Shown here piece after piece: positions 2,162 through 64,000 of a DNA stretch of 64,000 bases (within the stretch, counting starts at the first letter, position 1; the number at the start of each line of letters is the position of its first letter). The notes under the pieces are model-generated. The model did no database searches, had not been told where the DNA came from, and was given only the letters and a program-made list of their open reading frames with translations. The DNA lies in the NCBI GenBank assembly GCA_015499995.1, contig JADNRV010000133.1, positions 88,978-152,977 of the forward strand, in the 5' to 3' direction. The stretch is from Flammula alnicola. Lineage: Eukaryota; Basidiomycota; Agaricomycetes; Agaricales; Strophariaceae. The translations under genes and the position numbers were made by a program.

Positions 2162-2769
2162 ATCGAGAGAAAGGATGGTAGCGTGTCGACAGGCAATACA
2201 GGTTGGATATTCTCCTAGATCTAAACAGTTGTCCAAGTGTGGATCGAGTGTCAATGTACCGTGTGTGAACGAGCTTGAGGTCAACTCAAACTTGTAAGAT
2301 GTTAGGAGGCCAGCTCTTGGGGGAAGGAAATCTTTCTAGCGCGCCCACCCTTTATACAAAATCCAGGAGGCACAACGGCGGGCCATGTCGGGAAGGGACC
2401 AAGGCCCTGATCGAGCCACGGTTCCAATCGCTCTTTACGCCGCGCCGACTGACATCTCGCCGGATTTGAGTCAGATAATCGGTCCACACGCAAAGGTTGA
2501 ACGAGCTGGAAGTATTATGTTGTTAATCAACATCTGCAGGTCTTGAGACTTGCGATATGCAAGACTGTCTGCAGAACGGCAAGTTCGGCCAAGGAGTGTT
2601 CATCATCGGCTCGAACGCAGTGCCGAGTTCCGCACGCTACATAAGCAGTACATAAGCAGCAACTTGCTATTGCCAACAACGGAACAACCTCCATAAGTCT
2701 TGAGAGCATCAGATTAGATCTTCGCCGCGTCAATGTTCAAATTAAAATGCCAGGCACGTTTGACACGCG
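2162..2769. other. Intergenic, no gene recognised
   Basis: The short open frames here have no domain signal or coding texture. The stretch probably holds the divergent 5' regions of the secreted-protein gene and the first NACHT gene. Confidence 0.5.
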
Positions 2770-21183: not shown

Positions 21184-23482
21184 ATGACTTCCCTGCTATC
21201 GCAGTGCCTTCAGACGGGGCTGCACCACCAATCTGCTCAAACATGCTGCAGGACTGCCTTGATTCACAGTAGTGCATCGGTCTCAAAAGGCCAGAAATTA
21301 GGTATGTGGTGTTAGTTCAAATTCGACACATGGACTGATGTTTGGCAGCTACACGGGCTACGATACGTGGGGAAGGTCAACAGCGTAGAAAAGGACGACA
21401 AGCAGCGGATGCTGGCCCTCCTAGACCGGCTTTTACACGGGATGAAGTACCTCACGTGGGAAAAACCCCTGCGCCCGAACGAGGTGCTCGCATTCGCCCT
21501 CAAGAGAGACCACGCTCAGGCCAACAAAGTTATCCTCGCCAGCGTTCGAATAAACCTGACCGTACTCAGGATTCGTCTCATAAACCGCGTCCGCCACTCC
21601 CATATGTGAGCAGAGAGGCCGCAGGCAGAAGTATCATACACGATTTTTCTCGGCGGGTGGAGACAGACACCGTTCCACACGGAGAATCCTGGAGCGACCG
21701 AAAACCCATTCGCTCAGGCGCTTATGACGAGCCTGAAACCCAAGACGAATTCTACCATCCCCACCAGCCCGCCTCCGTCATTAATGCCAAAGGAAAGGGC
21801 AAAGCACTCCCATCAGACGACAGTCTCCCCGCGGCATTCACCTCGCCTCCACTACTCCCCGGTTTCGTTGGCTCTCTCAAGGAGATGCTCGGCCCAGACG
21901 CGCAACCGACGCCCATACAGAACCTCAGCATGAAATGGCTTCTGCAAAACCCAGCGCCGGTTCCCGGTTCGCCTGGGTGGCGACAATTCCTCCTTGCCTC
22001 GGAAACAGGCTCTGGAAAGTCGATTGCCTATCTCCTTCCGCTTCTCCAAAATCTCAAACAGGCCGAGATAGCGGAGAAGGATCACCCACCGACAGCTCCA
22101 TCAAACGCGACGCAGCGGCCGCTTAATCCTCGCGGTATCATCATGGCTCCAACGCACGAGCTTGCACGTCAGCTGTCGGGCTTTGCTAAATCCCTTCTGC
22201 ACGAGGTCAAGTTGCGCGTGCTGTGTGCGAGCCAGGCGAACTCGAAGAACACGTCGAGGCAGAAGGACGCGACGTCGAGCAAGATGGCGTCGAGATTCCA
22301 GGGCGTCGGTGGTGATTCATCGGGGGCGTTTGAGATTAAAAAGTCGGCTCATCCTGTGAGCATCGTGGTTGGGACGCCGATGAAGCTACTGGAGATGGTT
22401 CGTGGGCGGGGGTGGGATCGAAAAGAGGAGACGGAGGAGAAGGACGAGGAAGGAGAGGTTGAGGATGAGGAGAACGCGAAGAAGCCTCGACGAGGACGAG
22501 ATAAGGTTGTCCACTTTGGTAAATGGAGGAGTCAGCCTGAGCTTGGGCTTGCTAATGTGGAGTGGGTCGTTGTGGACGAGGCTGATGTTCTCTTCGGTAT
22601 GTCCTGCCCCTCTATTAATCTTTGCTATTCTCATTGCATTCTCTCGCAGACCCCGATTTCCAGGAAACGACTCGAACTCTGCTAGCAGACATCAGTGCCG
22701 CTCGTGGACATGTTCTTCCTCCCTCTGCATCGACGCTCGTTCCAACTCCTGCCCTTAATCCACCCACCGCACCCACAACCCCAGAACCCATCGACTACCC
22801 ATTCAACCTGGTCCTCACCAGCGCAACCATCCCCAAATCGCTCAACACCTACCTCGAGAAACACCATCCGTCTCTCGTGCGCCTCGCCTCGCCTCGCCTG
22901 CACCGCCTGCCCAAGACGCTGCAGACCGAGTACGTCAACTGGACGGGCGGGAACAAGTTCGCCGACGTCATGCGGCGCGTCAGGAAGATCTGGGCGGAAG
23001 ACGCCGCCTCTGCGGGGAAGGGTTTGTCGAAAGTGTTGATCTTCTGCAACAGGAGCGCGAAGGTCGTCGAGTTCAGCGCGTACCTCGCCGAGAACGGGAT
23101 CAAGAGCGTGGCGATGACGAGCCAGAGCGAGCATCGCGGGCGGGGGTCGAATAAGCACCTGGAGGGATTCCTGCGCAAGCGCGCTGCGGATGATGAAGGG
23201 GAGCAGGTGGCTCCGCCGGCAGCGAGCGTGGATGTGAAAGAGCACCCGTATGTCATGGTGACGACGTCGTTGCTGTCCCGTGGGTTGGATTTCTCGCCGG
23301 AGATCAAGCATGTGTTCATCGTGGATGAGCCGCGGAACACGATTGATTTCTTGCATCGGGCAGGAAGAACGGGGCGGGCAGGCGAGCGGGGCAAAGTTGT
23401 TATCTTTGGCAAGCTGAAAGGCCGGGGCAGTCAGAGGACGAAGGATGTGAAGAAGAGGATTGGGGTGCTAGCGGCGGCGTAA
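21184..23482 (+). CDS. MRH4: Mitochondrial DEAD-box RNA helicase MRH4
   Basis: Three exons (21184-21301, 21349-22596, 22650-23482) give 732 residues. The N-terminus (MTSLLSQCLQTGLHHQSAQT) is basic and serine-rich, as expected for a mitochondrial presequence. Helicase motifs in order are: motif I ASETGSGKS, Ia PTHELARQ, motif II VDEAD, motif III TSAT, motif V-like TTSLLSRGLDF, and motif VI HRAGRTGRAG. There is an acidic insert (EETEEKDEEGEVEDEE) between Ia and II. Mrh4 acts in late assembly of the large mitochondrial ribosomal subunit. Both splice junctions restore phase; the second rebuilds VVVDEADVLFDPDFQ. The Met was chosen as the first start in the open frame with a targeting-like sequence. 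Confidence 0.9.
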
Positions 23483-31175: not shown

Positions 31176-34100
31176 TCAATCATCAGTCAGAATGCCTTTC
31201 ACACCACCGCTCTGGGTCCTCCCTCCATCTCTTGCACGAGCAGTGTGCATGCGCTTCCCACCCGGTCCTTTAGTCGAAGAATTTCGCGTCCGTTCAGGGG
31301 GGGATGACGATGGGTCATCAGCAGGAGTAACTGGGAAAGGATAGTGCTCTTGCTGTTGGGGCTGAGCAGGAAGCCTGACGGAAGGAACCGGAACCGGGAT
31401 CTGCTTCTTGCTCTTCTTCGACTTCCCAGTGCCGTTACCAGCGTGTTTTGATGAAGATGACGACGATTTACTCTTGGCCAAAGGCGGCACGTTGGAAGAG
31501 GAAGGAGGTGACGGCGAGGAATCCTTCGCTGGAACATGTAGGGGTTGTTGGAATTGAGGAGGTCCGGTGGGTGTAGGCACAGAAGGGTCGACCCAGTCGT
31601 CCTCGATATCATCGTCACCGAATCCCTCGCTATCCTCTGGATTGAAATCGAGCTCTTTGTCTTCATCGTCGTCGCTGCCGCCTTTGGCACGCAAGGGCTC
31701 CACGATATCGAATCTTGAGTTCGGCCCAGGTGTTACGGGATCAACAGAATCCTCCTCAGTATCGATCTCCTCGCTCTTGCTTCGGTCGTGCCTCTGGCGG
31801 TTGCTAGTAGCACTAGCACTCGAAGGCGACGCAGAGCGAGACCTTGTGTCGAAGAACTGGTCTCCATCACCGTCTCCTTCGACTTCTACGCCCTCTTCGT
31901 CCAAGTCCATATCATCCGGCTCTGAAATTGACTCGAGGCCCATATTGTCGTCCGAGTCGGAAGGCCACGTCGGCTGTTCCTCTTGAATAGAAAATATCGT
32001 CTTAGGAAGCTGTAACACAACACTTAGCTTAGATGAATAAAAATTTCGGAAATCTGAATTGCTTACGTCGCTGACCCTCTTCCTAAAGTCCCACCAGTCC
32101 GCCTCATCCCGACACAAGAATCCAATGAGCATACTGGGGTCCAAGCCGCTCATGGGCATCTTGCGCACCCGCTCGCAGTGGAAAGTCTTGAGGTCCGCCG
32201 CACTATACGCTGTACAATAGTGCTGCTGCACCGGATCAAGTCCTCCGTTATTGCTGCCGCCGATATTGTCGCTACCTGCTCCAAACGTCATCAGCTCGCG
32301 ATGGTCCATCTCAGACGAAGACAGGCCAGGAGATCCAGGCTGGCTGCCAGAAGCAGAACGCCACCGACCATGATGCTGTCTGTGCTGTCCATGCTGCTGA
32401 TAGGAAGGTGGCGGTGATCGTGAATCCGTGTAATTGGAGGATGAATCCGCTGAAGAGTTCGAGAACTGGTGTTGGAGCGGAGATGGAGATATAGGGGCAT
32501 GGTAGGAGAAGTTGGAGGATCCTGTCTTGATAGATGAAGGCGATGTCGGCGCGCGATTGTTGAGGTTGTGTTGGGTATTAGGAGTTGAGGCTCTAGGTGG
32601 CTGTTGTCTGGATCGATGCACATCCCGATCCGATTCAGGAGTAGGCTCGCGGTCGCGGTTATCGGAATCTTCGGATCCAGGAGGAGGATGGAGAGGAATC
32701 GCTGGTCGTGGATTGTGAGGGTCAAGATAGAAGAGATTGTCGGCTTGTGAACCGAGGAAATAATATGATGAACTAGGACGGCCGCCTGCAATGCCAACGG
32801 ACTGAGGGAATGTATACAGAAGCTGAAAATTTCGTGTGACGTAAGCAACGAGGATTACGTCGTCCGGGTGTATACCACTTCACCTTGATGGTATCATAAT
32901 AAATAGGATTGACTCCTTCGATTCCTAACCGAATTCCTAACAGGAGAAGGACGGGTCGATCACCCCATGTCGTTGTATGTCGACGACGAGGGGAACGACT
33001 TCCATCTCCATGCGAAGCTGCATAAACCTGAGTCTGATATAAGGTGCTGTCTGTCGCAACAGATACAGCAAGACCACAATCAGGAAACGAATGGACAAGT
33101 GTTCTGATATGGCGAGAAATTTTAGATGAATGAGAGTAGCAATACAATAATACGGATAGAACGTACTTGATCGCGCCGGCAGCCACGCTAGGTCCAAACC
33201 ACTGTCCCACGTCGGTTCCTAATTCCTTCCCAGCCAAAGCCATGCGATGAACGCTAAACGGTGCCTCTGGAGCAGGCGTATCGAGGAACCATGTGAGTAT
33301 CTGCACGTATGTGGCATAATCTGCAGTTTGAACTGGATAAGGAGGTCGTCGCCAATCTAATAATAAAGAAAGCAAAATGGCGTCAGGTCACAAGAAAAAA
33401 ACTAGTAGTAGAAAGGGGCGTTAGCTACCTCGGCCAAGGTGCATCGTAATAAGGGCATTGGCAAGCAAGCTCTGCCCGGTTCGCAGCATGCAGCCCCATC
33501 CAGAATCACTCGACCACGTCTTCTCGCCACCCCAGTTCCATGGACGCGGTCGGACAGTGGTCGGACTGTTTGCAACCATGACGTCCAAGTTTTCTCCACA
33601 GAGATCAGCCAATCGCCCGTCTCGGATGGGCGTAGGGAAATGTGATCGATAAGTGAGCCAGATGCGCGATGTGAAGTCGATATAAAAAACTGGAGGCCAG
33701 TTGGCCGCAGGGTGTGGGTGTTTTGAGCTTGACTGTGATTGTGAAAGGGAGGCTTCGCTGTTGAAGGCCACGGAGGACGTGGAGGAGCGAAGTGAGGGCG
33801 GCGAGACAGAACCGTGGCGACCTCCTGTGGCGCTGGGAACAACGTCAGGAAGCGACGGAAGTGGAGGCTCATAGCCTGGATGCTGTACTCCTAAGAGCCA
33901 AATGGGATCTGTACACTTGTCAGGCGTCGCGTCGCTATCAAGTAGATATCGCATCGCTTTGCCGAGGTGGTCCTTCCCATGCTTGGCGACATTCAGAAGG
34001 GCAGAAGGGCCTTTGCCCTTAGGAGAAGATTGTTGCGCCAGTATGCTGGGTAACGAGAGGTCGGTCGAGGAGGTGCTAAATGTGTGCGAAAACCAACCGG

Positions 34101-34611
34101 AAAGTCGGGTGGGAAGATCGCCAATGCGTGACGTAGACGAGGCAGACGAGTAGAGCGTAGGAATGTGGTGAGATTCTGGGGCAGAACTGGCCGGTCGTTC
34201 GGAGCGGGTACGGGGTCTGGGTATAGTGACTGGCTCCACGATTACAGGGGGTTCATCCATCTCCATAGATGAGTTTCCATTGGTCAGAGAGGCAGCGTTA
34301 TCGGGTAGTGGCGGGGTACTGGTGGACTTTCTGGCCTTTTCGTCCTTGTTTATTGAGAGAAATTTGCTTGTTTTCCTTGGTTTGGCGATTGTTACGGTCT
34401 GAGGATAGGATTCAGGAGAAGCGGAGGCAGAACTGCTGCTTGCGATGCTACTGGTGCTTGGACTACCGCCAGGACCAGGGTCGGTTACTGACTTTGATCT
34501 GTCGCGATTGCCTTGCTTCTGGAGAAATCTAGGCAGCTTCGATGGCGCATGACTCAGTGGTGGAGTAGACGGAGACGGAGACGGGGTGTGTCGTGAGTTC
34601 TTGTTGGACAT
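31176..34611 (-). CDS. ATG4: Autophagy cysteine protease ATG4
   Basis: Five exons (34611-33429, 33356-33167, 33103-32884, 32822-32067, 32009-31176) give 1,060 residues. Atg4 cleaves the C-terminus of Atg8 and later releases it from phosphatidylethanolamine. The catalytic Cys is in [34 protein letters not shown] follows, and the Asp-His pair is in [11 protein letters not shown]. The start at [18 protein letters not shown] was chosen because the upstream in-frame Met lies within what looks like a 5' UTR intron. The protein is over twice the length of yeast Atg4. The excess is a Ser/Pro-rich N-terminus, an insert after DPH, and an acidic then basic C-terminal tail. Long ATG4 proteins are usual in Agaricomycetes. 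Confidence 0.93.
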
Positions 34612-37600
34612 GAAGAAGATGGCTAGAACCGGTAAGATCAGTTGGCATCTTTGTTCCAAGCTGAATGAAATACGCACTCGTAAACGTAAAGTAGGTGAAT
34701 TCGAGGCAACGGTGATCCAAGGAACTTGCGATCAAACTCTAGTGCAATCGAATTACACAGAGAAAAATGGAAATACGCCTCAAGGAGAGAGCACTAGACA
34801 GACATAGCGATTAATAGCGTGAACATCATTCACGGGAAATTTCAAATCAAAATCGACAAGTAGCAAAAGGTGCTGCCCCAGAGGGGTAACGACGACAACA
34901 TCAACTGTCCCTGCGGCCTTTGGCACGTTTCCGATCAACCTTCATCGCACCTGGGCCATGATGGCACAGAAGACTCAAGAAGAGCGCCCAGCGCACGCTA
35001 GGAGCCACAAACGCCATCGAAACCTGGCAAGAAAAGAGAAGAATGCGCCGTACTTACCTGTGGAGTTCGCGATACCTGCACCCTTGTTGCAGCCGATAAC
35101 CCCAGGGTTGTCCAAACTCCAGCTTACGGCCAAACGAGTTTCTATGTGCGACTCGAACTACCATGGAAGACAACCGCAGTCAGTAAGATCCTTGGTTCGA
35201 CTTGTGGAATGTTTCTCACCGTTCAACGACAAGGACCACCCAAACCGTCACTTTTTCGAGCCGAGCACACCCTAAATGGACCTCCAGGCTCTTCCGCCAC
35301 GAAAAGGAGTACAGAAGAAGTACAAGAAAGAGAATAAAGATATGGATGCACCGGAGATGGTTGTGAGACAGAGGCAAGAGATGCTTGGACGATGTCGGTG
35401 GCAGTCTCCACGCGATAGCCTTGTTTGGATGTTTGTCATCGTCAGGGTCCTTTTCTTCAACAAACCTCCTTTCTCACAATCCACATCGCTTTTTGCCAAC
35501 TAATTCCTGTTACAACATCTCAGAGCATGGCGCGGACCGATACCAGAATTACTGGGTCAAATTTACTGCCTGAAATCTTGCCAACAACTTGTCGCAAAAA
35601 TTTTGTATTCCTGTCGTCGCGCCAAAAACGCAATTTTGGAGGACTCGCCGGGGGCACAGTCGATACAGGTAAAGCAAAATCAAACGCAGTAACCCTTATT
35701 CTGCGTAGATTACTCATTTAACTTATTGTTTTCAGTACACGCTACTTTGTGGCACCAGTGCTACAGCGACGCGTCATTCTGAAACGTTTTCTCTGCGAGA
35801 TCACTGGCCTGTTGAGGGTTTTTTTCATGCCTCTGAGCTGTTTTCTAAAACCTCTGCATTGCCAAACCTATGTTTTTTTCTAATCACGAAACCGCGGAAT
35901 AACGGTGTCCGAACATTACGCAAGGCGCGACGTGAAGTCTATTCGTCTCGTCATTTATTGCGTGTCTCTAGGTATGTTAATGCACTCATACCTGAGACCT
36001 CTCTCACCCTGGTGCTTGTCGACAATATTTAAGTCCGCAAATTCGGAGACCACAGCGAAGCCCTTGATTTGACAATATCACCGCAAAAGCGCGAAAAGAA
36101 GCGACAAGCCTTCACCTGTTAACCTACGCACAGACCCCTCTCGCAAAGTCCCAGCGTTAGATCTCGATCCAGCGTAGCCGTGTAAGCATCCTACCTCGAG
36201 CGTGGCGCAGAGTAACCAGCTGACCACCCAGAACTGTCTTATTTAGAGCGTACATAAACACAGGCCACGCACCTGGACTTAATACGCTGCCAAGGAAACC
36301 GCTTCCGACGTTGGGGCATGAGCCAGCTTCACCCACGTGAGCGAGAAGAAGATCGCTTGAAAGATGCCTGAAGCAAGCCCAGAAAGAGAAAGAGAAAAAT
36401 CGGCCACTGACGCATTGCCGCCGGGAAAGTGTCGCGGATGAGTCACCTCGAGCACATACCGTCATTCCTAGGTGCCAAAATCCAAGAAGCAGAGGTGGCC
36501 TTGATGTCATTATTATCTTCGGCGTCTTGCTTACTCTCGTAATGCCCCTTCAGATGGAAGGCCTGGGGAGGTGGTTTCTTTTTTTTTGTTAAGTGTATCC
36601 GTTTCCCTGTATCAATTTGAAGAAGATGCTTATAGGCGTGGATTTCTGAATACATATGAAGTTCGTCCTCTCCAGTATTCAGAATTATAAGAATGAGCTT
36701 ACGGGTAGCTGCGAAGTTCAAGACCATCAATCGCGACTGGCGCATCGGCAGTAGGTAGCTCCGTCGCATTTCATATTCGGTGATAAGGCTTATCACTATC
36801 TCTTAGGTGCCGTTTTGATAGCAGATCGATGATTTAGTCTTTCAGCTAGCCATCGCTGTGAACGAGGGAATCTCGTGGCTCACAATACCGCCATGAACGC
36901 GAGAAGATGCAAATACTTCTCTGTGCAGTGACGGACTTCTTCGACCACGTCCCTAATCTGCTTGGCATTGCATCTCAACAACGCGATTATTGATATCTCT
37001 CTAAGTATAGTGCTGTTCTAGGTAAACAATCAGCTACGTCCTTGACCAATTCCTTAACGGCAGGAGAGGTAAAGCTAACGCAAACAATTGACTGCAGGGC
37101 ATCAAGTCCGCGATCATTGGTCTTCCTCAAACCGGACTCGTCCGACATTAACAAACTCTTAACGTTCGTGTTTTTCCATCCACCTCGTGAACACCCCCGT
37201 CAATTTGGCTGAACGCAATCCCAAGCAGAACCTTTATCTCTATATCTATTTGTATCCCCTTACTAACCTATATTTGTCTGCGCCGCGGCGTCTAAGCTCA
37301 TCCCAAGATCCATTGTACTCATCAGTGCCGTCACCCACGGCACTTCAATCGAACCTGATCAACAGCACGAAGTCTAGACTAGCCCTAACGCCGCGTCAGG
37401 AACTACGTGGCATCGACAAACGTTTTCCATTAAGCCTCCTCCACGCAGCCATCGGAGTCTTGCGCATTCCAGGACACCGATGTTAGGTAAGTCAATTACG
37501 CTTCACCTTCAAAGGAAAGGTTTGGTCGCTCGGACTTGGACTAGTGCACAGCGGGTACCTATCGGCGCTCCAGATTCCACCTTGTTCAATTCACTGACTC

Positions 37601-43269: not shown

Positions 43270-44230
43270 TTATACCCCACGGCACCCAACGCGAGTCACC
43301 GCGTATCCAACGCGAGTCACCGCGACTCAACGTGACCCAACCTGATATGATCTGACACATTATCAACTGTCATTCTGACCTAGAAAAGTGATATGTCAAG
43401 TCAGTGCACCATAGGTGAGATGACGTGACCCAACGCGAAACAACGCGCGCATATGACGCGAGTCACCGCGTGCATATGACGCGAGTCACCGCGTGCATAT
43501 CACGCGAGTCACCGCGTGCATATCACGCGAGTCACCGCGCGCATATGACGCGAGTCACCGCGTGCATATCACGCGAGTCACCGCGCGCATATCACGCGAG
43601 TCACCGCGTGCATATGACGCGAGTCACCGCGTGCATATCACGCGAGTCACCGCGCGCATATCACGCGAGTCACCGCGTGCATATCACGCGAGTCACCGCG
43701 CGCATATCACGCGAGTCACCGCGTGCATATCACGCGAGTCACCGCGTACATGTCACGCGAGTCACCGCGCGCATATCACGCGAGTCACCGCGCGCATATC
43801 ACGCGAGTCACCGCGCGCATATCACGCGAGTCACCGCGTGCATATCACGCGAGTCACCGCGTACATGTCACGCGAGTCACCGCGCGCATATGACGCGAGT
43901 CACCGCGTGCATATCACGCGAGTCACCGCGTGCATATCACGCGAGTCACCGCGTGCATATCACGCGAGTCAACGTGTACATATCACGCGAGTCAACGTGT
44001 ACATGTCACGCGAGTCACCGCGTGCATATCACGCGAGTCAACGCGGTACAACGCGCACCCTACGCGACCCTACGCGACCCAACCTGATACAACATAAACT
44101 GTTGTAAGGCATATTTCTACCTAGAAAGTAGTATGGGAAGTCGGAGCGCACCAGGCATACCCCACGACTCAACGCGTACACCCCACGCGACTCAACGCGA
44201 CTCAACGCGACTCAACGTGACCCAACCTGC
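43270..44230. repeat. 23-bp minisatellite array with duplicated flanks
   Basis: About 26 tandem copies of a 23-bp unit (consensus core GCGAGTCACCGCG followed by TGCATATCAC) fill 43440-44045. Variants swap GTG for GCG and ATC for ATG. The period is not a multiple of three but lacks stops, so two plus-strand frames stay open for over 200 codons. These are artefacts of the repeat, not genes. Shorter units (ACTCAACGCG, GACCCAACCTG) occur on both sides. A segment ending TAGAAA..AGT..AAGTC.G occurs before (about 43331-43412) and after (about 44076-44150) the array. Confidence 0.92.
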
Positions 44231-49204: not shown

Positions 49205-51070
49205 TGCATGATCAAAGAGGTGTTTCTCTCCAAAACCATGACAGATAGGTTGCCACAGTTCATAAAGATTAGAATCCCACACCACTAAGAGAAACACCTC
49301 TTGGGGGCGGAGCACTGGCCTGAACGGTGGTGGCGTTTCAGCGCAGAATGACCGTCACATCAATAGCGGCGGCATTTTGAACTGTTAAAGCCCTTCTTGT
49401 ATCTCATAATTTATTATATATTTCAAACTATTTTTGTGCCAAGCCACTAAGCTTAACAGTTCTTGGTTGGTTCTCTGCGCCCAGATGGTGTTTTGGCCCT
49501 TGGATCGACTAAATATTCATAGAGGATGATCAAAGAGGTGTTTCTCTTCAAAAACATGACTGATAGGTAGCTACAGGTCATAAACATTAGCGTTCCACAC
49601 CGCTAAGAGAAACACCTCTTGGGGACTAAGCACTGAGCCGTATGGTGGTGGCGTTGGAGCGTAAAAGGACCGTCACGTCAATAGAGACGGCGTCTTGAAC
49701 TGTTCCAGCCCGTCTTCTATCTGATGATTTATTATATATTTTAATCTATTTTTGTGCCAAGCCGCTAAGCTTAACAGTTCTTGGTCAGTTCTCTGCGCCC
49801 AGATGGTGTTTTGGCCCTGTGATCGACTAAATATTCATAGCGCATGATCAAAGAGGTGTTTCTCTTCAAAACCATGACAGATAGGTTGCTACAGGTCATA
49901 AAGATCAGAATCCCACACCGCTTAGAGAAACACCTCTTGGGGGCGGAGCACTGGCCTGAACGGTGGTGGCGTTTCAGCGCAGAACGACCGTCACGTCAAT
50001 AGCGGGGGCGTCTTGAACTGTTACAGCCCGTCTTTTATCTGATGATTTATTATATATTTCAAACTATTTTTGTGCCAAGCCGCTAAGCTTAACAGTTCTT
50101 GGTCAGTTCTCTGCGCCCAGATGGTGTTTTGGCCCTGTGATCGACTAAATATTCATAGCGCATGATCAAAGAGGTGTTTCTCTTCAAAACCATGACAGAT
50201 AGGTTGCTACAGGTCATAAAGATCAGAATCCCACACCGCTTAGAGAAACACCTCTTGGGGGCGGAGCACTGGCCTGAACGGTGGTGGCGTTTCAGCGCAG
50301 AACGACCGTCACGTCAATAGCGGGGGCGTCTTGAACTGTTACAGCCCGTCTTTTATCTGATGATTTATTATATATTTCAAATTATTTTTGTGCCAAGCCG
50401 CTAAGCTTAACAGTTCTTGGTCGGTTCTCTGCGCCCAGATGGTGTTTTGGCCCTGTGATCGACTAAATATTCATAGCGCATGATCAAAGAGGTGTTTCTC
50501 TTCAAAACCATGACAGATAGGTTGCTACAGGTCATAAAGATCAGAATCCCACACCGCTAAGAGAAACACCTCTTGGGGGCGGAGCACTGGCCTGAACGGT
50601 GGTGGCGTTTCAGCGCAGAACGACCGTCACGTCAATAGCGGGGGCATCTTGAACTGTTACAGTCCGTCTTCTATCTGATGATTTATTATATATTTTAATC
50701 TATTTTTGTGCCAAGCTGCTAAGCTGCACAGTTCTTGGTCGGTTCTCTGCGGCTGAATGGCGTTTTGGCCCTTGGATCGACTAAATATTCATAGAGCATG
50801 ATCAAAGAGGTGTTTCTCTCCAAAAATATGACTGATAGGTAGCTACAGGTCATAAACATTAGAATCCCACACCGCTAAGAGACACACCTCTTGGGGGCAG
50901 AGCACTGAGCCAAATGGTGGTGACGTTTCAGCGCAGAAGGACGGTCACGCCAATAGAGACGCCAGTTTCACCCGTGCCTGGCTGCATTGTGTGCTGCAAT
51001 TATTATTTGTATGTATCAATCCCTGTTCCAGACAGCTAAGCTGCACCATACATGGTTGGTCGTCAGTCTC
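49205..51070. repeat. Satellite array, 318-bp period, about six copies
   Basis: The marker ATGATCAAAGAGG recurs at 49208, 49526, 49844, 50162, 50480 and 50798, exactly 318 bp apart each time. Copies 3 and 4 are nearly identical; copies 1, 2 and 6 differ more, and the last decays after about 50960. Each unit contains the arms AAGAGGTGTTTCTC and GAGAAACACCTCTT, complementary and about 60 nt apart. No open frame is conserved. Confidence 0.95.
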
Positions 51071-51084
51071 CTAAAGGTACTCAA

Positions 51085-51385
51085 GGTAGACATAGATCAT
51101 ATCGACGTAGACGTCGATACTTCAGCGTAAAGGTAGATTATATCGACATAGACGTAGATTGTATCGACGTAGACATGGATTGTATCGACATAGACGTAGA
51201 TTGTATTGACGTAAACGTAGATTGTATTGATGTAAACGTAGATTGTATCGACGTAAACATAGATTGTATCGACGTAGATAGACGTAGAGTATTTCAGAGT
51301 AGACATAGAATCCTTCAATACAGACGTAGATCATATCAGCATAGACGTAGACCACGTCAACATCGACGTAGATCATATAGGCATC
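51085..51385. repeat. GACGTAGA-type array, left copy
   Basis: Degenerate 21-bp units (core GTAGATTGTATCGAC) in tandem. The open frame across it (repeated DCIDVNV) reflects the period, not a gene. A related array lies right of the helicase gene. Confidence 0.9.
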
Positions 51386-51420: not shown

Positions 51421-52343
51421 AGCAGATAGCGCTGCATTCGTCATGGTGCTATGCCGCAAATACAAAAAATTAGACGGCACAGACATCCCTATGGTGGCTG
51501 TGTCACATGTCCGGCGGTCATTGTCGGTTAGGAAGGGATGTACAACATCCCTTGAAAAAAGGACAGCGAGTCCGCATGTGAGCTTGGAGCCCGGGGGGAA
51601 CTCTGCGTTAGGATCGGTGGCACAACTGAGATGTCTTCCAGGATGCACAGCTTGGTCTTGAAAGCAAGTAAAATAGAGACGCCGGAGGTGAGTCGCAACT
51701 GAGCTTGGAAAGCCGGTGGTCATACAGAAAAGGAGAAGACGGTCGGCGTCTGTTTAGAACTACACAAAAAAACAGGGCACGCACCCAACTCACTTGAACC
51801 GCAGTGCGTACTGGAAAGACGGTGAGTTGACGGGAGGAGCGACATTCGCCGCAGGCGTTTGGAGCGACGACCCACGCAGTGAGTTAGGGTTCATACTTCT
51901 GCGGTGCGGTTAGGGTTGTCTATCTCCCTATTAGAAAAATAACCCCCCTCCTTGCACAGGTTAGGGTTCTGCTCTATCCCCCAGAGTTAGGGCTCTCTTA
52001 TACTACTTGAAATTAAAAAAATCCCTCCTGTCTCAAAGGTATGGGTGCCTGCCCTAAACTGCCAAATCAGTAACTGCCTGATTGGGAAATCTGGTTCATC
52101 TCTTATCAACCACCACCATCTATCTGCAACAACATGAGGTATGACTGTCTTTCCTTGCTCTTTCACATCTGTTGACCTTGCCTGAGCATAGCCATACCTG
52201 TAAACCCTGTAACCAGCCCTTTCCTAATGGCCAAAAGGGTGCAAATTCCCTTGTAATGCACAACAAACGTTTGCACAGTCAGTCTGTGACTGTCTCTCAG
52301 ACCTGTGAGTTTTTTCTCTTGAAATCTCCTTAAGCTAAGTCTG
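51421..52343. other. Leader region of the helicase gene with scattered TTAGGG motifs
   Basis: Several isolated TTAGGG or TTAGGGTT motifs occur between about 51880 and 51995, which is typical of subtelomeric DNA. No coding region is supported. Confidence 0.6.
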
Positions 52344-55300
52344 ATGTCATCTACACTAGCCGACAAGACGCTGCTGGGCAGCTGCATCCGATCTGGATAT
52401 TCCGACGTCATCGTCTGCTACGTCGAAGACTGCGGCTTCGAAGACGACAACTGGGCCAAGCTAGAGGCCCACATCAAGAGGGTTCATACCAACGGGGCCG
52501 CCATCTCCTGCAAGTTTTCCATGTTTCCAGCGCTCGTCAGCCACAACTCGCTTGACGTAAACCGGTTTGCCGCCCTTCCCGTCGAGGACGCAGACGAGGA
52601 CGGGTCGGAATCCACCTCTGCATCTGGCGATTCTGGTCCACTTGAACCTGCCACTACCCGAGCGTCTCGCCCCATCACCTCACCTCTCAGCATTCCCAGG
52701 CCGACACGTAGCAGGAGTCGTCCATACAGACGCACATCGCCTGCGTCGACACGCAGCTCCTCTCCTGTGCTTGGGCAATCTCTGGGAGTGCTTCTGGCGT
52801 CGACACCAGTTCTGCCGTCTCCGCTTGGCCAGGAGCCCTACTCCCGTCCGCAGACGCCATCAGAGGAATCGTCGGAGGCCGACAAGGACGTCTCGATGAA
52901 TGACATTGCAGATGACGTCTTCTCGATGGACATCGATCTTCCTGCTGCACCTGCAAACTGGACTGGCGATCTGGATGACGGGGAGTCTCTGCTCCCCAAG
53001 GCTGGCTTGTTGCTCCTGCGTTTAAGTACACTTGGTGAATTCCCTGTCCCTCTTCTCCTCGTGTGCATAGAGTGTCAGTGTGGTGTGCCTCCCAAGAGTG
53101 CTAAAAGCCACGTCGCCTCTCATGACATCCATCTGACCAAGAAAGAGAAGAAGATCTTGTCTGGATGGTTGGCGGAGACGAAGCTTGCCCAGGAATCGAA
53201 GGACGTCTCGACTCCCAGGCCACGTCAGGCGCCGCTGCAGGGTCTCCAGGTGCAGCCTGGCTTCTCCTGCAAACTCTGCCCATTCTGCGCCCCAGTGAAA
53301 CGCACGGTCGAGAACCACGTCTATGAAGAACACCCTGAGCGCCGGGGCTCCTCTGCTTCAAAGTTCATAACAGCCGCCGCCCTTCAGGCGTACTTTCGCA
53401 AACATCCCAACTACTTCTCCGTCACTGAATCTCTCGCCGGTCTCGACGTTGATGACCCCTTCGCTTTGTACATGGAGCAAATCGTTCCTGAGATCGACGC
53501 ATCTACGCTGGTGAATGCGGCCACGTCCGTCAATGAGATCCCTCCTCTCTTGAAGATGACACAGTGGCATGAGCACCTGGCACCCTTTCTGACCGACAAA
53601 ACCACCATCCATGACCTCTGCTCACTGATGGATCTCCCGACGTCGAAGCGCGGTGACGCATGGCTGGGCACGCCCCTCGGCAACGTCATTCTTGACTACA
53701 TGAAGGACATTCGGAGCAAGGCGAACAAGGCGTCTCTTGGTATCAAATGCCTGCTGATGGAATGCCCAAGGTAAGGTGCAGTTTCTCACTCCAACACCAC
53801 AGCTAATCGACTTGTTCTGCGTCACGCAGACCGACGCAACATGGTGAATGGTGGCAGACGCTCTCCGACAATGTCTCGCTTGCAAAGTATGCAAAGCTTC
53901 TGCACCGCTGGACCCACGCCGTCATCGTTTCCATGAACAGCCATCCATCGGGCTATCAGTTCCCTCTGACGGACGAGATCCGCGAACACGCCAAGACATT
54001 GACGGACATTCTGAAGTCGACATCCAGGAGGGAGGCGTCGATGCCTTCCACGATTTCATCAAGCTCATCTTGTATCCCATGGACCGCTCAGAGGACGACG
54101 ATGACGAGTACAGCAAGTGGGATGAGCCCATTGAGTGCCTCCTTGCAATCGACGCCCTCCGTGAAGATGGGAACTTCAAAGCCGCCCATGAGATTACCGG
54201 TATATTTGCCAAGTTCTTCTACCACCTCCGTGGCGCAGTTTTATACCAAGGCCTACGCAACAAGTTCAACTTTGGCAACAATGCATACAAGTACGTCTAT
54301 CCTCACTATTGTTCACGTCAGCCAGAGGCTGATAAGATTATGTGCAAGATCTGTCGAAATGAGGCTATGCAAAACCTGCAGCCAGGTGTCCTCTCGCCCT
54401 ACAATAGCTGTGTCGACTATCAACGATATGCCACCGCACTTGCTCTCAACACCAACACGCCCCCGACGACTCGCGTCACTGCAGACGGTATGTTCGTCAC
54501 GTTCAAGAGCACACGCTCGACATCGCCAAGTGGCGACATGGACTTCATCGTCTTGCAGCAGAGATCAAGTCCGACCTCGCCGAGCTTTGCATGGGACAGG
54601 AAAGGCACCTGCAAATCCCTGATATCGTCCCGACGACTGGACCAACGAGGTCCGTGGTTATGGCTGGACGAAGAATGCACGCTTCTTGGGTGAAAAGCGT
54701 CAGTTACTAAAGGCCTTGCTTGCTGATCCCGCCGTCAACCTCGCCAGGATCGAAGACGGCAAGTTTACGTTCAACGCCACCCGCTGCTGGGACTTTAGCA
54801 ATAGATGTGACGCAGTCCTCGAGAAGATCCTCCTCTTCGCCTTTCTGACTCCTGGACAAACACCGCGCATCACCGAGTTCATGGATCACAAGTTCGCCAA
54901 CTCGACTCGCCCACGCTCGATCTTTAGAGATCAAGACGGACTCTGGCTCGTCACCCGCAGAGTCAAGACAGAGACGCAGACACGCAAGGAGACCTTCCTT
55001 CCCATCAAGTGCCACCCGATGCTCACGCAGTTCTTGGAGACGTACCTCCTTCTTGTCCGACCGGCGCTAGCTGAGTTGGTCCATCACCTCAAGGGCGAAG
55101 AGGCGTACCACGTCTACTCAGAGTACATGTGGACCAAGCAAGGTAGGCGCATGACGGAGGACGACACTTACAAGATCCTCAAGACGTTCATGAATACGCA
55201 CTGCGACATCGACGTTGGCAGCCACGACTACCGTCAGATCTGCGTGGAGGTGGGCAGAGTCTTTCTTGGCTCTGGCTTCGAGGTCGATCAGGAGGAGCTC

Positions 55301-57956
55301 GACGTTCTTGCCTCTCAGGCTGGCCACACTGCGTCGATGGCTCAACTCAAGTACGCCGCCGAAGCAGGCCGTCTCCCGTCCATGTCCAGCGATCTTCTTC
55401 TTCGCTATGGCAGGATCTCTGAATCGTGGTGGGCCGTGACGGGTTTCAAGCCAAACACCCCTCCCATGCTTCCTCTGCGTTGGAGAGCGCAGAACAGGCT
55501 CTCGACAGTAGGTCTGACTGCCAGCAGCTCTGACGACGGAGCCCAGACTTCATCCGTCACTCCTGCATTTGACGCGTCCCAGTTCCTCGAAGTGCTTACC
55601 GCTACGCTGACCAACGAAATCCAACAAGTCAAGGTCGGTCTGAGAGACGAAGTGCGCAACGCTGTCGCCGAAGCACTCGCAACCTTCCAGCAAGCCGTCC
55701 CGCCAACCAGGGCACCTCAGGCAGTTCCAGCCGCTGTCTCCGTCGCTGCGCCGCCTCCTAGTGTTTCCGCTACAGTCCCTGCAGACGTCGACGATGACGA
55801 CATGTATATGCCTGATCACACAGAAGTGCTCCCTTTACCTGCACCGTCTGCGCCGTCTACTTCCTCTGTCCCGTCCACCCTTCTACTGCCTTATGTTCCT
55901 GCAGAGAATACACGTGCGTATCTGGAGGGACTCCTCGCTAAGCATTTTGCAGATATCGACCATCCCAAGTTCAAGTCGGAGATGCAGATGCAGGTGGTCG
56001 AGATGGCATTGGCGAGGCAGGAGAACTTTGTCGCCGTCATGCCGACTGGATCTGGGAAGAGTCTTCTCTTCACGCTGCCTCCTTTCAACGAACCTGGCTA
56101 TCAGACATACGCCGTCATTCCAATCGGGCACTGCTTCTTGATCAGGACAGAAAGGCGCAGAACGTCGGGCTTTCAACGCAGACGTGGAGGGTGGACCACC
56201 AACAAGTGCGGTCAGCGACGCAGCTTGTGTTTGTGGCGATTGAGAGCGCCACTCATGTCAAGTTCAATGCGTGAGTCTCACGTCTTCTCTGAATCCTTCT
56301 GAGACTAATGTTACGTCAAAAAAACCACTCAGGTTCTGGCTTCGACAGGAGAACAAGGCCATTCGTATCGTCGTCGATGAAGCGCACCAACTGCTCACGT
56401 CGCGCGAGTTTCGTTCCCACTTCAAAGACTTGCAACGTCTTGCACAGCTCAAGGTGCAGAAGATCATGGTGACGGCGACGTTGGCCATTCGTCTTGAACA
56501 CGCCTTCCTCCAGGAAGCTGGGCTTCCCCTCTCTACTCGCATTATCCGCGCTCCTTGTGATCAGCCGCATATTAGCTTCAACCGCGTCACCTACTCGACC
56601 ATGAATACCAAGGTGGTCCGCCTCGCCATCGACGTGGCGAAACTGCTGAGACGTCTTTCATGGCTCCTGATCAGTGCGGCATCATCTTCGTCAAGGACCA
56701 CAAAACCGCAGACGCACTCCACGCCAACTTCACCCAATGCTCCACTCATTCTGTGCGCCAAGCAACCGACAGACTGCATGACGAGAACGCTTGGAGGGAG
56801 GGCCACAAGAAGTGGATCGCCGCGACTACGACACTCATTCAGGGGATCGACCAGCCGAACGTCGGCGCCGTCATATTCCTTGAGGTGCCCTATGGACTTA
56901 TCAATTTCTACCAAGGTTCAGGGCGGACAGGTCGGGACGGACGCAAGTCGTGGTCTGTTCTTCTCGATCCCAAGAATATGCACCTTGCGCTCCACCCATC
57001 AGACGCCGACTACCAGTGTGAGAGGGAAGGCCAGGAGTGGACCATGGCACAAGAATGTCGACGTCTTGCCTTTACACGTTGCCTCGATGGAGCCGACGTC
57101 GCCTGCGCCGACTTGCCTGGCTGTCATTTGTGCGACTTCTGTGATCCAGCATCTGTGCTTATGGCCGCAATCACACCTCTCATTCCTGATCCCCTCGTCC
57201 CTCATCCTTCTGTTGTCGATCACGTCATGGCTGGCCGTCCGCTGCTGACGATCAGTATGATCGATTCAATCTGAGTCAGTGGAATGACTTGGACATGTCT
57301 CTCGTCCCCGATCCCGTCTGGCACGCAGCACCCAGCCCTATGTCGGTTCAGGTCCCCGCCCATCTTGCACCCCCCACGACAAGTCGGCTTCAATGGCGAT
57401 CCTACGTGATGCTTCCTTCTATCACCAGCAACTCAAAACGAAGGTCCAGAAAGGCAAGGTCCTCAACTCCTTCGTCTCGATGCTGTATGGCAAATGCGTC
57501 ATGTGCTACGCCTTTACCAACAATATCGTCAACAAGCATACTGGTGGGCTCTTTATTCAATGCAAGCCACGTGGGACTGGTTACGTCGACTATCTCATGG
57601 GTTGGCAAGTCTTCAAACGCAAGATTCAATTCAGCGAGGCGTTCAAGTACTGCTTCAAGTGCGGTTTACCTCAGGACAAGCAGTTCATGCCGTCATGTCA
57701 CCCGTCTCTGGAAACTGGCAACAAGGGGAATAACAAGTGCCCTCTAGAGGACTTCGTCATTCTCCTGGTCTGGTGGATCCGTCACGAGGAGCGTTGGTGG
57801 TTACGTGCATGTGACGCATTCACCGCACTGCAAAGGAACTGGGGAGAGGATGAATTTGCAGCATGGCTCCGGAGGACGGAGAGTGTCGACTCGTTTTACA
57901 ATGGTATTGAGCTGATACTTTGGTTCTATCTAGAAAGACAGCATGATGTACAGTAG
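52344..57956 (+). CDS. Telomere-linked RecQ helicase with an internal tyrosine-recombinase-like domain, frame-disrupted
   Basis: Exon 1 is 52344-53772, then 53830 onward with a second intron at 56271-56332. The intended product is about 1,800 residues. N-terminal fingers include CYVEDCGFEDDNWAKLEAHI with the H-x4-H pair and CKLCPFCAPVKRTVENH (C2H2, DUF3505-like). The middle has TPRITEFMDHKF (54866), HDYRQ (55223-55237) and GHTASMAQLKYA (55322-55357), the R...HxxR...GH...Y set of tyrosine recombinases. A Pro/Ala linker follows, then RecQ motifs: MPTGSGKS, VVDEAHQLL, QGSGRTGRDG. The end is Cys-rich. RecQ helicases at chromosome ends (TLH) are known in many fungi. The frame shifts by -1 near 54020, 54507, 54632, 56122, 56655, 57247 and 57373. 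No stop lies in the intended frame. Confidence 0.85.
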
Positions 57957-58099: not shown

Positions 58100-59085
58100 A
58101 ATATAGACGTAGAGTATTATTTGAGCATTGACGCAGAATATTTCAACGTAGACGCAGATTATTTCAACGTAGACGTAGAGTGTTATTTCGACGGAGACGC
58201 AGAATATTTCAACGTAGACGCAGACGACTTCAACTTGGTTGTAGAATGTTATTTTGACGTAGACGCAGAATATGTTGACGTAGACGCAGACGACTTCAAC
58301 TTGGTTGTAAAGTGTTATTTCGATGTAGACGCAGAATATGTTGACGTAGACGCAGATGACTTCAACTTGGTTGTAGAGTGTTATTTTGACGTAGACACAG
58401 ATTATTTCGACGTAGACGTAGATTATTATTTCGACGTAGACATAGATGACTTCAACTTGGTTGTAGAGTATTAGTTCAACCGAGACGTAGATGACTTCAA
58501 CTTGGTTGTAGATTTTTATTTTCGCGTAGAGAAATAATCCACCTCTATGTCCACATTGACATTATCTACATGGAAGTGATCTGCGTCTACGTTGAAGTGT
58601 TTTACGTCTACATTGAAATAATCTACGTAGAAACAATCTACGTCTGTTTATGTTGAAATAGTCTATGTCTATATTGAAATGAGCTACGTCTACATTGAAA
58701 TAATAATCCACGTCTACGTCTACATTGAAATAGTCTACCTGGATGTTGAAGTGATCTACGTCTACAATGAAATAGTCTACGTCTATACTGAAATAATCTA
58801 TATATGTTCAAGTAATCTACATCTATGCTAAAAGAATAATCTACGTTTATGTTGAAGTAATCTACATCTATGTTGATATACTCTACGTCTAAGCTAAAAA
58901 GTTGTCGTCTATCTATGTTGATACAATCTACGTCTATACTGAAATATTGCTATGACTATCTAAGTTGATATAATGCACGTCTATATTGAAACAATCTATG
59001 ATGGTCTACGTCAAACTAATGTATGTCTGTCTATGTTGAAATAATCTACGTCTAGCTATATCGAAACAATCTATTATAACCCAAG
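58100..59085. repeat. GACGTAGA-type array, right copy, switching strand at about 58540
   Basis: From 58100 to about 58530 the units read GACGTAGACGCAGA on the plus strand, partly in a 66-bp higher-order unit with TTCAACTTGGTTGTAGA. From about 58540 to 59070 the same motif reads as its complement (TCTACGTCTAC, ATTGAAATAATC). The long open frame at 58121-58474 is a repeat artefact. Confidence 0.9.
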
Positions 59086-59770: not shown

Positions 59771-59789
59771 GCCACGTACAAGGATAATG

Positions 59790-59807
59790 TTAGGGTTAGG
59801 GTTAGGG
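59790..59807 (+). repeat. Interstitial telomeric repeat, three TTAGGG units
   Basis: Three perfect TTAGGG units in the same orientation as the terminal telomere. This fits an older chromosome end onto which more distal sequence was added. Confidence 0.92.
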
Positions 59808-61302: not shown

Positions 61303-63929
61303 TTAACCCAACGAGGGCTCTTCTCCGAAAAATGTATCGTCGAAGAGTACCAGATCGTCCGCAATAATGGGACTATCTTCTTCAGAATTTTGTAGAGGTA
61401 GAGCATGTGTTACCGAGCTCAATACCTCACGTCTCACCTTACCCACAACATCGCCCAGGTTAGGCAAACGTTTGCGGGAGACAAGCCATCGTGCAGTCGT
61501 TAGACCAACTTTACGAACGTCGATCACGTCCCTGACCTCCATACTGTTACTGGTAAACCCCATGGGGCGCAGATACGTAAGGGAGATATCATCCCAACCG
61601 AAGTCAGGATTGTTCAGGGTATCAACCGCTTCCAAATCTATAGGCAACTTAACAGCCGGAACTGACTGGTCACCGTTCGACTCGTCCACTGACATCGACA
61701 CTTCCTCCTGGGCTGGATCCGGAGACCCACTCACGTCAACATCCATCGGTTCGGCCGGAGCCAACCCGCGACGAACATCGAACCCAAGTCCTTCCGCGTA
61801 CTTTGCGATGGTAGTATAATCAATACTAGATATATCGGCTCCGTAACGGGACTTAGCGAATTCGTAAAGTCGGGATAACCTGTTCGAGCGAACCTCGGAC
61901 AGACTGGTTATCCAGCGTTTAACGACAACATTCTGAAGTTCTCGTAGGTCGAACGCTTCCCAGATCGGGTTGAACTCTGATTTCAGGACCAAGAGATCGA
62001 TTATGGCTCCTCCGGTATCCGGTCTTTTGGACCGGTCTCCATTTGCGCTCTCCTCAAAGCGCGCATGCCATCTCTTGTTGGTGTTGTCCTTTAACCATTT
62101 GTTTAACAACTTCAGCGGGTAGCCTCTACTGAGGTAGATACTTCGAAGATCTTGGAGAGCCTCGAAGTAATTAGCAGGATTACTACTAAGTACGGCTAGC
62201 CGTGACATCTCTCCCAAGAAGGTGCCCTTTCGGACATCGAGGGGGTGGTGAGATGCGAACGGGATGCGTTCCAGGTGGTTACGTGCTTTGCGGTAAGGTT
62301 GCCATTCAAGCCGGTTGCTAGCCGGGTTGATGTACAACATCATGTCCAGGAATGCGAGATGAAACTCGCTCACGTCCCACGTAAGTTCGTGCTCGTCAAA
62401 CTTTATGAATGACTGACAATACTCAAGCGCTTCTTCGCGAGAGTTGGCATACACTAAAGCAAGACCGTCGTCGATAAACCGAGCGTAGAACGCCAGTTTA
62501 CCTTTATTTAGCTCGACGGGAGCCCATTTTTCCTCAAAGACAGCGCCCCACAGGTTAGCAACATCCGGGCTACAAGCTACGCCCATTGCTAAACCGCGCT
62601 TCTGCAGGTAAAATGTTTGCTCGAACTTAAAGATAAGATCCATGCACGCAAGCCGCATCGCTCTGTCAGTGAACTTGAAGAGTTGTGTAGATGGGCGTGG
62701 ATTAGATTTCCTCAACCATAGCGATAAAACCGCTTTGATCGCTTCTAAGGTTGGTATCGTTGGATAAAACGCTACGATGTCGAATCCAACGAGGAAAAGT
62801 TTGCGTGTAGGATCAAACGTTGTTTTGGATAACCGAATCGCTAGGTCCTTAGTCCCGCGAAGGACGTAAGGACGCTGTGCTAGGAACGGTTTCAACGTTT
62901 TTGATACAAACTTGGCAGCCGGGTTTACAAGCGCGCTGTGACAAGGCACGATAGGTCTCATCTTTACAGGTTCCTTGTGAATCTTGGGTATACCATAGAA
63001 CACAGGCACGATGAACTTATCGAGCGCTAACTCGTCCGGGACAAATTGCCGCAAAAAATCTGCCAATTGGTCATTACTAAAGATAGCACGAGCGTCCGCC
63101 GACAACTCAATGACCGAATTACATGTTTGTATTAACATGACTTCTGCGTTCTCCCGACTAAATATGGTGTAATTAGTCGCGTCTGAGAGGAGCGCACGTG
63201 TGTTGTCTAAGAACCAGTCCCGAGTTACTATGGATGCACCTAGATTCTTATCCGTTGGCAAAACGATGTAGTTATTGCTTCGGAGGAAGTCCTGGACACT
63301 CTGGTAGTCTACCAGCTCGGGGCGTGGTTCGACTTTGAGTAGCTGAGGTACGACGTTGGCACAGAACGAATCTATGTACGACCTTCCGGCAGCAAGTCCA
63401 TCTTCAATGTAAGGGTGCAATTCGACCGCCTCTGACCGGGGGCGGCGAATATCATAGTCTGGGTCATAGACTTTTTTCTCGGTTTCTCCTTTGCTTTCGC
63501 GTTCTAGCCAGTATAGGCGCCACCTTAGACGATCACACATATCATCGAACGCACGGTAAAGCAAATTTTTATTAAGGTTTTTACCGCTGGAGCTTCCAGC
63601 GCGAGGGAGATACCTTAAACCCGCGGACACTTGTACAGATATATAATTGGGGGCCGAAACCCCCGGACCGAGATGTACGCTGCTACGGAATCTAGCCGCC
63701 TCCACAACCACAGGAGGCGTAGCAGCGATTATATACTGTATGGCGAGGGGGAAAGGGATCAGTAAGATTTCGTCTGGATAGGTGTCAGCTCTATCGTACC
63801 GAAGGGCGGGCACCGCCCGCGTTCCTCCAGCGACGGCAGAGGCAACTACTGCCTCTGCTTCCCTTTGCCTTTGCGTGAGGCCGAACTCGAGGCTTTCGCC
63901 TGCGGTTTCGGCGAATTGTTCGAAGAAGG
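61303..63929 (-). mobile_element. Penelope-like (Coprina-type) reverse transcriptase, 5'-truncated by the telomere
   Basis: The frame is open from the telomere junction at 63929 down to a stop at 61303, at least 875 residues with no ATG near its visible start. RT motifs seen are LPTDKNLGASIVTRDWF, VPVFYGIPKIHK, RPIVPCHSALVNPAAKFV, GFDIVAFYPTIP (first catalytic Asp), KRGLAMGVACSPDVANL and FYARFIDDGLAL (catalytic Asp pair at 62467-62478). These mark the Penelope-like RT clade. No GIY-YIG endonuclease follows; the C-terminus is acidic (EPMDVDVSGSPDPAQEE) and then basic. Endonuclease-lacking PLEs called Coprina are known at basidiomycete telomeres. The sense strand runs inward with its 5' end at the telomere, as expected if the G-strand 3' end primed reverse transcription. 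Confidence 0.9.
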
Positions 63930-64000
63930 TTAGGGTTAGGGTTAGGGTTAGGGTTAGGGTTAGGGTTAGGGTTAGGGTTAGGGTTAGGGTTAGGGTTAGG
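63930..64000 (+). repeat. Terminal telomere, (TTAGGG)n
   Basis: Almost twelve perfect TTAGGG units run to the last base of the window. The G-rich strand points right, so this is a right-hand chromosome end. Confidence 0.98.

Follow-up and report, generated by a model that had tools for sequence, protein, structure and literature searches.

Does a helicase of fungal chromosome ends carry a tyrosine recombinase? The question is raised by a stretch of 64,000 nucleotides from Flammula alnicola (assembly GCA_015499995.1, contig JADNRV010000133.1, positions 88,978 to 152,977 of the forward strand), referred to here as ‘the window’. This stretch ends in telomere repeats, and it contains, at ~52341-57956 on the + strand (start codon presumed), one copy of a subtelomeric gene for a telomere-linked helicase (TLH). 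A preliminary description of the DNA had noted the residues that define tyrosine recombinases (YRs) between the zinc fingers of this protein and its RecQ motors, and had pointed out that such a gene would turn TLHs into independent mobile elements. We find that a set of YR-like catalytic residues is invariant in 12 copies from the same genome. The TLH appears to be one large protein in which C2H2/OrsD fingers are followed by a highly diverged YR domain whose R-K-R-H-Y active site is intact, then by a RecQ helicase, and finally by a tail rich in Cys. That the domain is YR-derived we consider very likely, and we infer a YR fold for it; that it is also catalytic is probable, at odds we put at roughly 0.6.

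The order of parts in the window copy, on contig C39, is as follows.

52341..53770, + strand: exon 1, with a C2H2-like finger and OrsD (Pfam and direct reading)
about 52416-52487, + strand: N-terminal C2H2-like finger, C-x4-C ... H-x4-H (read by eye from the sequence)
about 53055-53333, + strand: OrsD zinc-finger domain, PF12013 (Pfam, E 7.8e-14)
53771..53829, + strand: predicted intron, GT...AG (from the sequence; the equivalent protein position in C150 also carries a GT-AG intron)
53830..54622, + strand: stretch separating OrsD from the catalytic domain (tblastn to the mid and YR pieces of C150)
54779..55402, + strand: YR-like catalytic domain (residue pattern and conservation)
55403..55930, + strand: linker from the YR-like domain to the helicase (translation)
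55931..57073, + strand: RecQ-type helicase core, with GSGKS, DEAH and QGSGRTGR (Pfam DEAD/Helicase_C, NCBIfam recQ, tblastn)
57074..57956, + strand: C-terminal Cys-rich region, common to C150 (tblastn, E 3e-33)

The YR pattern lies between Pfam matches to OrsD and to DEAD/Helicase_C, in the order that had been described. The assignment to RecQ is based on the C127 helicase, which matches PDB RecQ entries with a best E of 2.6e-14, and on the NCBIfam recQ models, which match with scores under their whole-protein cut-offs. The window copy itself is a broken reading frame. It had been described as frameshifted and correctable against a sister copy, and comparison with copy C28 reveals eight single-base length differences. 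The helicase core is spread over several frames, as is the stretch at 53830..54622, which is open in C150 and which, from its position, may be the place of the YR core-binding domain.

The R-K-R-H-Y pattern and its conservation

The translation of the frame at 54623-56302 contains the strings to which attention had been drawn, namely GQTPRITEF, LPIKCHPML, QGRRMTEDDTYKILKTF, HDYR and GHTASMAQLKYA. Within it, the catalytic candidates were located by script, with residues numbered in this frame.

codon 54866, + strand: Arg I, residue 82
codon 54875, + strand: Glu at R+3, residue 85
codon 54965, + strand: Lys of RRVKTE, residue 115
55223-55234, + strand: HDYR box, residues 201-204
codon 55325, + strand: His III, residue 235
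codon 55352, + strand: Tyr, residue 244

The two spacings first reported, 119 residues from the Arg to HDYR and nine from the His to the Tyr, are exact. In a single sequence such a pattern means little: a loose version of it (R, K, HxxR and [HW]-x8-Y) was matched by 23 of 2000 shuffles (1.2%) of a 304-residue stretch, as would suit a conserved domain of some other kind whose R, K, R, H and Y have YR-like spacings by chance. Because the single sequence is only modestly unlikely, the weight of the pattern rests on its conservation.

We searched the genome (74.4 Mb, 861 contigs) for relatives of the YR region, and found 20 places in one search and 31 in another. Twelve of the 20 were aligned, all of them free of stops in this region. 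Omitted were the copy at the C30 end (its YR region is that of C28 over 1200 bp), four rows of a broken copy on C151, the partial copies C590 and C109 (three to four stops), and C201 (42 residues); some places from the 31-place search, such as C412, C856 and C56, also lie outside the alignment. The copies are far apart, the most distant having 16-21% identity to C127, and no more than 13 columns have the same residue in all of them: G, G, R, E, N, R, K, L, R, P, R, H and Y. Among these are Arg I and the acidic residue three positions after it (R209 and E212 of the alignment), the Lys between Arg I and box II (K243), and His III with the Tyr nine residues later (H362 and Y371), each kept in 12/12 copies, as is the box-II Arg. 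Arg I and the Lys are separated by 34 alignment positions, 33 residues in the window copy. Even the degraded pieces C590 and C109, with their stops, retain R, H and Y.

When 13 residues were placed at random over 400 positions, the arrangement R-K-R-H-9-Y arose in 47 of 2,000,000 trials, and in none of 2,000,000 when the acidic residue at R+3 was included. These figures should be read as indicative, not as exact probabilities, because the alignment is taken as given and aligners favour the stacking of equal residues. They nonetheless argue against a chance arrangement within an unrelated domain, as do the acidic R+3 and H[ST]-x7-Y themselves, and the span from R82 to Y244, which fits the roughly 180-residue catalytic domain given for YRs in PMC8371274. 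Nine pairwise comparisons were made of the ratio of nonsynonymous to synonymous change (dN/dS) in the YR part. It is below 1 in four: C376/C30 (0.16), C117/C9 (0.06), C39/C28 (0.24) and C28/C678 (0.15, with dS of 2.4, near saturation).

Comparison with known recombinases

A good deal weighs against a catalytic YR domain. Four of the nine dN/dS comparisons are saturated, and the YR parts of C127 and C228 differ by no synonymous and four nonsynonymous changes, too few to judge. The His of HxxR is kept in three of the 12 copies (C39, C28 and C678) and is K, Q, N or R in the other nine. Nine of the 12 copies were scanned with Pfam, and none matched a YR family even with E allowed to reach 10; a search of PDB sequences with a profile of the 12 copies found no YR. 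With hhalign, we compared nine of the 12 copies (one per near-identical pair) with 24 prokaryotic YRs, including 15 of 80 XerD loci. Untrimmed, these gave a probability of 0.11%, no better than reversed or shuffled controls; overall, probabilities ran from 0.05 to 0.35%, and controls reached 0.48%. As a positive control, five frames of DIRS-like YRs from this genome scored 93% against the same prokaryotic set. The comparison with phage integrase and DUF3435 profiles that had been suggested for this domain gave no significant match: PF11917 (DUF3435) had no match in the TLH proteins scanned, and its three weak matches in the genome all lie at loci other than TLH genes.

Structure prediction fared similarly. 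AlphaFold2, given the single sequence of the window without an alignment, produced two models of low confidence, with predicted local distance difference test (pLDDT) scores of 34.5 and 37.8, and the matches from fold searches with the second were noise. In both models the Arg-I helix is followed by strands, and the Lys sits at the end of the middle one or beside it. This is the order of elements in YRs, and we give it no weight.

Trimming both sides to the catalytic part altered the hhalign picture in one respect. Probabilities stayed at or below 0.35%, and the best path against lambda/Xer/Cre profiles, unguided, paired the TLH R, R, H and Y with R212, R311, H333 and Y342 of lambda Int. Among 300 column shuffles, two brought all four residues into register, and 12 reached the trimmed score, the latter a further point on the negative side. 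So, too, are the TLH Lys, which was never in register with lambda K235, and the catalytic residues as a whole, which were unpaired when the alignment was untrimmed, was run in global mode, or was made against the DIRS-like set. The lack of any significant profile or fold match is what one would expect were the domain not a recombinase at all; set against the random-placement result, the residue features listed with it and the in-register pairing in the trimmed alignment, we consider that explanation quite unlikely.

A second alternative accepts the ancestry and denies the chemistry. The domain would be YR-derived, no longer cut DNA, and instead give the helicase a means of binding DNA or of dimerising, in the manner of domesticated Crypton genes (DUF3504). 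The His lost from HxxR in nine of the 12 copies fits this, as do a sequence that has drifted past profile detection and a window copy that is broken, and there is precedent: DUF3504 is described in PMC3212892 as YR-derived and without most of the catalytic tetrad. The TLH copies display the reverse, R, K, R, H and Y being invariant while nearly everything else has changed. Nor is the His decisive, because SSV1-type (KxxR) and pNOB8-type (YxxR) YRs, in which this position varies, have been published (PMC8371274); its loss does not exclude catalysis, though it takes the TLHs off the classic tetrad. We think it unlikely that the domain has ceased to cut, and retain a probably catalytic, highly diverged YR as the better reading.

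In their residues, then, the TLHs resemble lambda Int, XerC/D, Cre and the SSV1 and pNOB8 types: an Arg with an acidic residue at R+3, a Lys, an Arg, a His and a Tyr nine residues after the His, within a catalytic stretch of about 160-180 residues. They differ from tyrosine recombinases in lacking significant profile similarity, in the variable His of HxxR and in being fused to OrsD and RecQ. The distance from the box-II Arg to the His/Trp is also greater, 31 residues in the TLH compared with 22 in lambda Int and 23 in Cre. Among eukaryotic YRs, Cryptons (YR DNA transposons) and DUF3504 are akin by description, and the stated hallmark is an R-H-R-Y tetrad (PMC3212892). The TLH differs in being a large helicase protein for which no certain element ends, target or movement were seen. 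The captains of Starships (DUF3435, PF11917) are fungal YRs of giant mobile elements; the TLH proteins scanned have no DUF3435 match.

Fusion to the helicase

The YR signature had been described as fused in front of RecQ. The fusion stands: in three lineages, the YR region and the helicase are in one frame. C28 and C30 each have one frame of 754 amino acids (aa) that spans the YR region and Walker A; C150 has one of 690 aa with the same content, and reads open for 1944 aa (start codon unassigned) when four exons are joined at GT-AG junctions; and C127 and C228 have single frames of 1099 and 1122 aa that take in the YR region and both RecQ lobes. In C117 and C9, YR and helicase occupy successive frames. 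The signature itself is kept unevenly: R, K, R, H and Y hold in every aligned copy, the His of HxxR in three of the 12. Walker A is found in all four lineages, and the two parts have diverged in step. Between C28 and C150, identity is 49.4% in the YR part and 48.1% in the helicase; in the other five lineage pairs it is 20.7-28.2% and 25.9-30.3%, respectively. Since the two identities track each other, they point to one ancestral fusion.

In C39, C678, C150 and C851, OrsD lies upstream of the YR region. C117, C127 and C734 have a match there whose score falls short of the cut-off, and none was detected in the one C376 frame that was scanned. Less favourably for a constant three-part protein, no helicase was detected in the DNA stretches examined for C851 and C734. 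Because of these two, OrsD-YR is perhaps the older unit, and the form without a helicase may be ancestral for the family.

Parts of this architecture are familiar. RecQ-like genes have been reported at basidiomycete and ascomycete chromosome ends since 1998. The Flammula genes are like the UTASa/UTASb genes of U. maydis, the subtelomeric helicase elements of Colletotrichum and the subtelomeric RecQ of Agaricus bisporus in being subtelomeric and multicopy and in having a RecQ core. OrsD/DUF3505 together with RecQ is reported at chromosome ends in Colletotrichum (PMC5576322) and in U. maydis UTASb (PMC10532341), and, by annotation, in A. fumigatus (PMC3853031). In A. bisporus, only the helicase core domain was found; in Fusarium, TLHs lie beside telomeric retrotransposons. 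In the passages that describe these fungal TLHs no YR domain is mentioned, a difference from ours, and no YR within a TLH is described among the matches listed from the open-licence PMC literature (preprints and subscription papers were outside its scope). If its fold is confirmed, the YR would be a new feature on the known OrsD plus RecQ architecture, and would bring YR and RecQ, which are separate classes of enzyme, together in a single eukaryotic protein. An enzyme that rearranges DNA may thus belong to a known gene family.

Chromosome ends and the question of mobility

That the helicase is repeated at chromosome ends, as was proposed at the outset, is correct: on contigs C39, C28, C30 and C151, a TLH gene is adjacent to terminal TTAGGG repeats. 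The surroundings of these copies include the following repeats.

63928..64000 of the window, + strand: terminal telomere repeats, (GGTTAG)12 (TRF)
59789..59806 of the window, + strand: interstitial (TTAGGG)3
51086..51378 of the window, strand not applicable: 21-bp minisatellite, centromeric side of the gene (TRF)
58109..59078 of the window, strand not applicable: related 21/45/66-bp minisatellites, telomeric side of the gene (TRF, blastn)
L026/L027 9949-10000: telomere repeats within the helicase gene, C28/C30 ends
L030 6482-6517: interstitial telomere tract, C151

The interstitial (TTAGGG)3 at 59789 is possibly the trace of an earlier chromosome end; beyond it, a 2.7-kb frame extends to the present telomere. 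At the C28 and C30 ends, the telomere starts inside the helicase gene, directly after QGSGRTGRDG. At the equal position in the C151 gene there are six TTAGGG units, and the remainder of the gene resumes after a short loss. This position would be either a shared site of breakage and healing, or a former end that has been fused. The subtelomeres, too, are shared: the C28 and C30 ends have 99.9% identity across 10 kb, and C39 and C151 have at least 9.3 kb in common at 95.8% identity.

Telomere tracts within genes and shared subtelomeres would be left behind if chromosome ends were broken, healed and copied time after time, a process that requires no recombinase. On this account the TLH is a subtelomeric repeat of the ordinary kind, which recombination and break-induced copying carry from end to end like the Y' elements of yeast, and the YR is irrelevant to its spread. 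The truncation of the C28 and C30 genes by telomere repeats agrees with it, as does the lack of certain element ends and empty sites described below. It leaves a conserved recombinase active site unexplained, and it sits less well with the copies on C150, C851, C117 and C734, which are tens of kilobases from contig ends. We give it somewhat less than an even chance. It is compatible with a catalytic YR domain in the TLH, so the odds we attach to the several explanations do not sum to one.

Our data lend no support to the suggestion that TLHs are independent mobile elements. C117 and C9 share an apparent 8.5-kb unit with sharp edges, for which terminal inverted repeats and target-site duplications were sought and not found. 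As a bounded element it was rejected: the right edge is due to an extra insertion in C9, the right flank of C117 recurring with 100% identity roughly 4.6 kb beyond that edge, at C9:176649-176951, and the left flank is multicopy, matching four places. C127 and C228 differ at both edges, and the right flank of C127 opens a stretch that is also present in C534 (92% identity). After these flank searches, the evidence for transposition from both pairs was withdrawn. A short telomere-like sequence is present at the right edge of C228, beside other repeats, and was not used. From the edge and flank searches of the two pairs, no end could be assigned to an element with certainty, and at the two sites examined, those of C117 and C127, an empty copy was looked for and not found.

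How might a TLH of the kind we favour, with a working YR domain, act at all? Most probably, the zinc fingers would bind subtelomeric DNA and choose the site; the Tyr of the YR would attack the DNA, forming a 3'-phosphotyrosine link, so that strands could be cut and rejoined; and the RecQ helicase would open or remodel the DNA. Subtelomeric TLH units, or chromosome ends carrying TLHs, would be recombined or copied as a result. A bolder reading makes TLHs recombinase-helicases acting at or near chromosome ends, with units that move between ends, rebuild them or cap them. That further step we regard as doubtful, and equally so any direct role of the YR in TLH spread or in the maintenance of chromosome ends. 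If true, it would make the TLHs a eukaryotic counterpart, in spirit, of the YR-type telomere resolvases, and would explain the presence of TLHs at telomeres across fungi. A conserved recombinase active site would offer a direct and testable reason for their location.

The frame that abuts the telomere (61306-63927, - strand) encodes 874 aa, or 898 when read into the telomere repeats. It has, by eye, the reverse-transcriptase-like motifs MGVACSP and FIDDG, and no match in Pfam at E 0.01 or in the PDB at 0.001; we take it to resemble the telomere-attached Penelope-like elements of the Coprina type. A telomerase RNA-binding domain is encoded at C845:26249, C269:1264 and C231:43609, which suggests that telomerase is present in the genome. 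Such a domain, the introns and the other genes identified point to a eukaryote, and a TLH is in keeping with a fungus. Two of these loci are similar and one has a stop, and the assembly may therefore hold two haplotypes, in which case some pairs of TLH copies may be allelic. TRF also finds, centromere-proximal to the TLH gene, a 318-bp tandem repeat (5.5 copies, 49206-50956) and a 23-bp one (26.7 copies, 43433-44045). Elsewhere in the window are two NACHT/NPHP3_N ATPase frames (2764-4551 and 7479-9047), a second DEAD plus Helicase_C gene with weak similarity to the C127 helicase (21339-23479), and two frames with matches to Peptidase_C54, ATG4-type (31179-34731, - strand).

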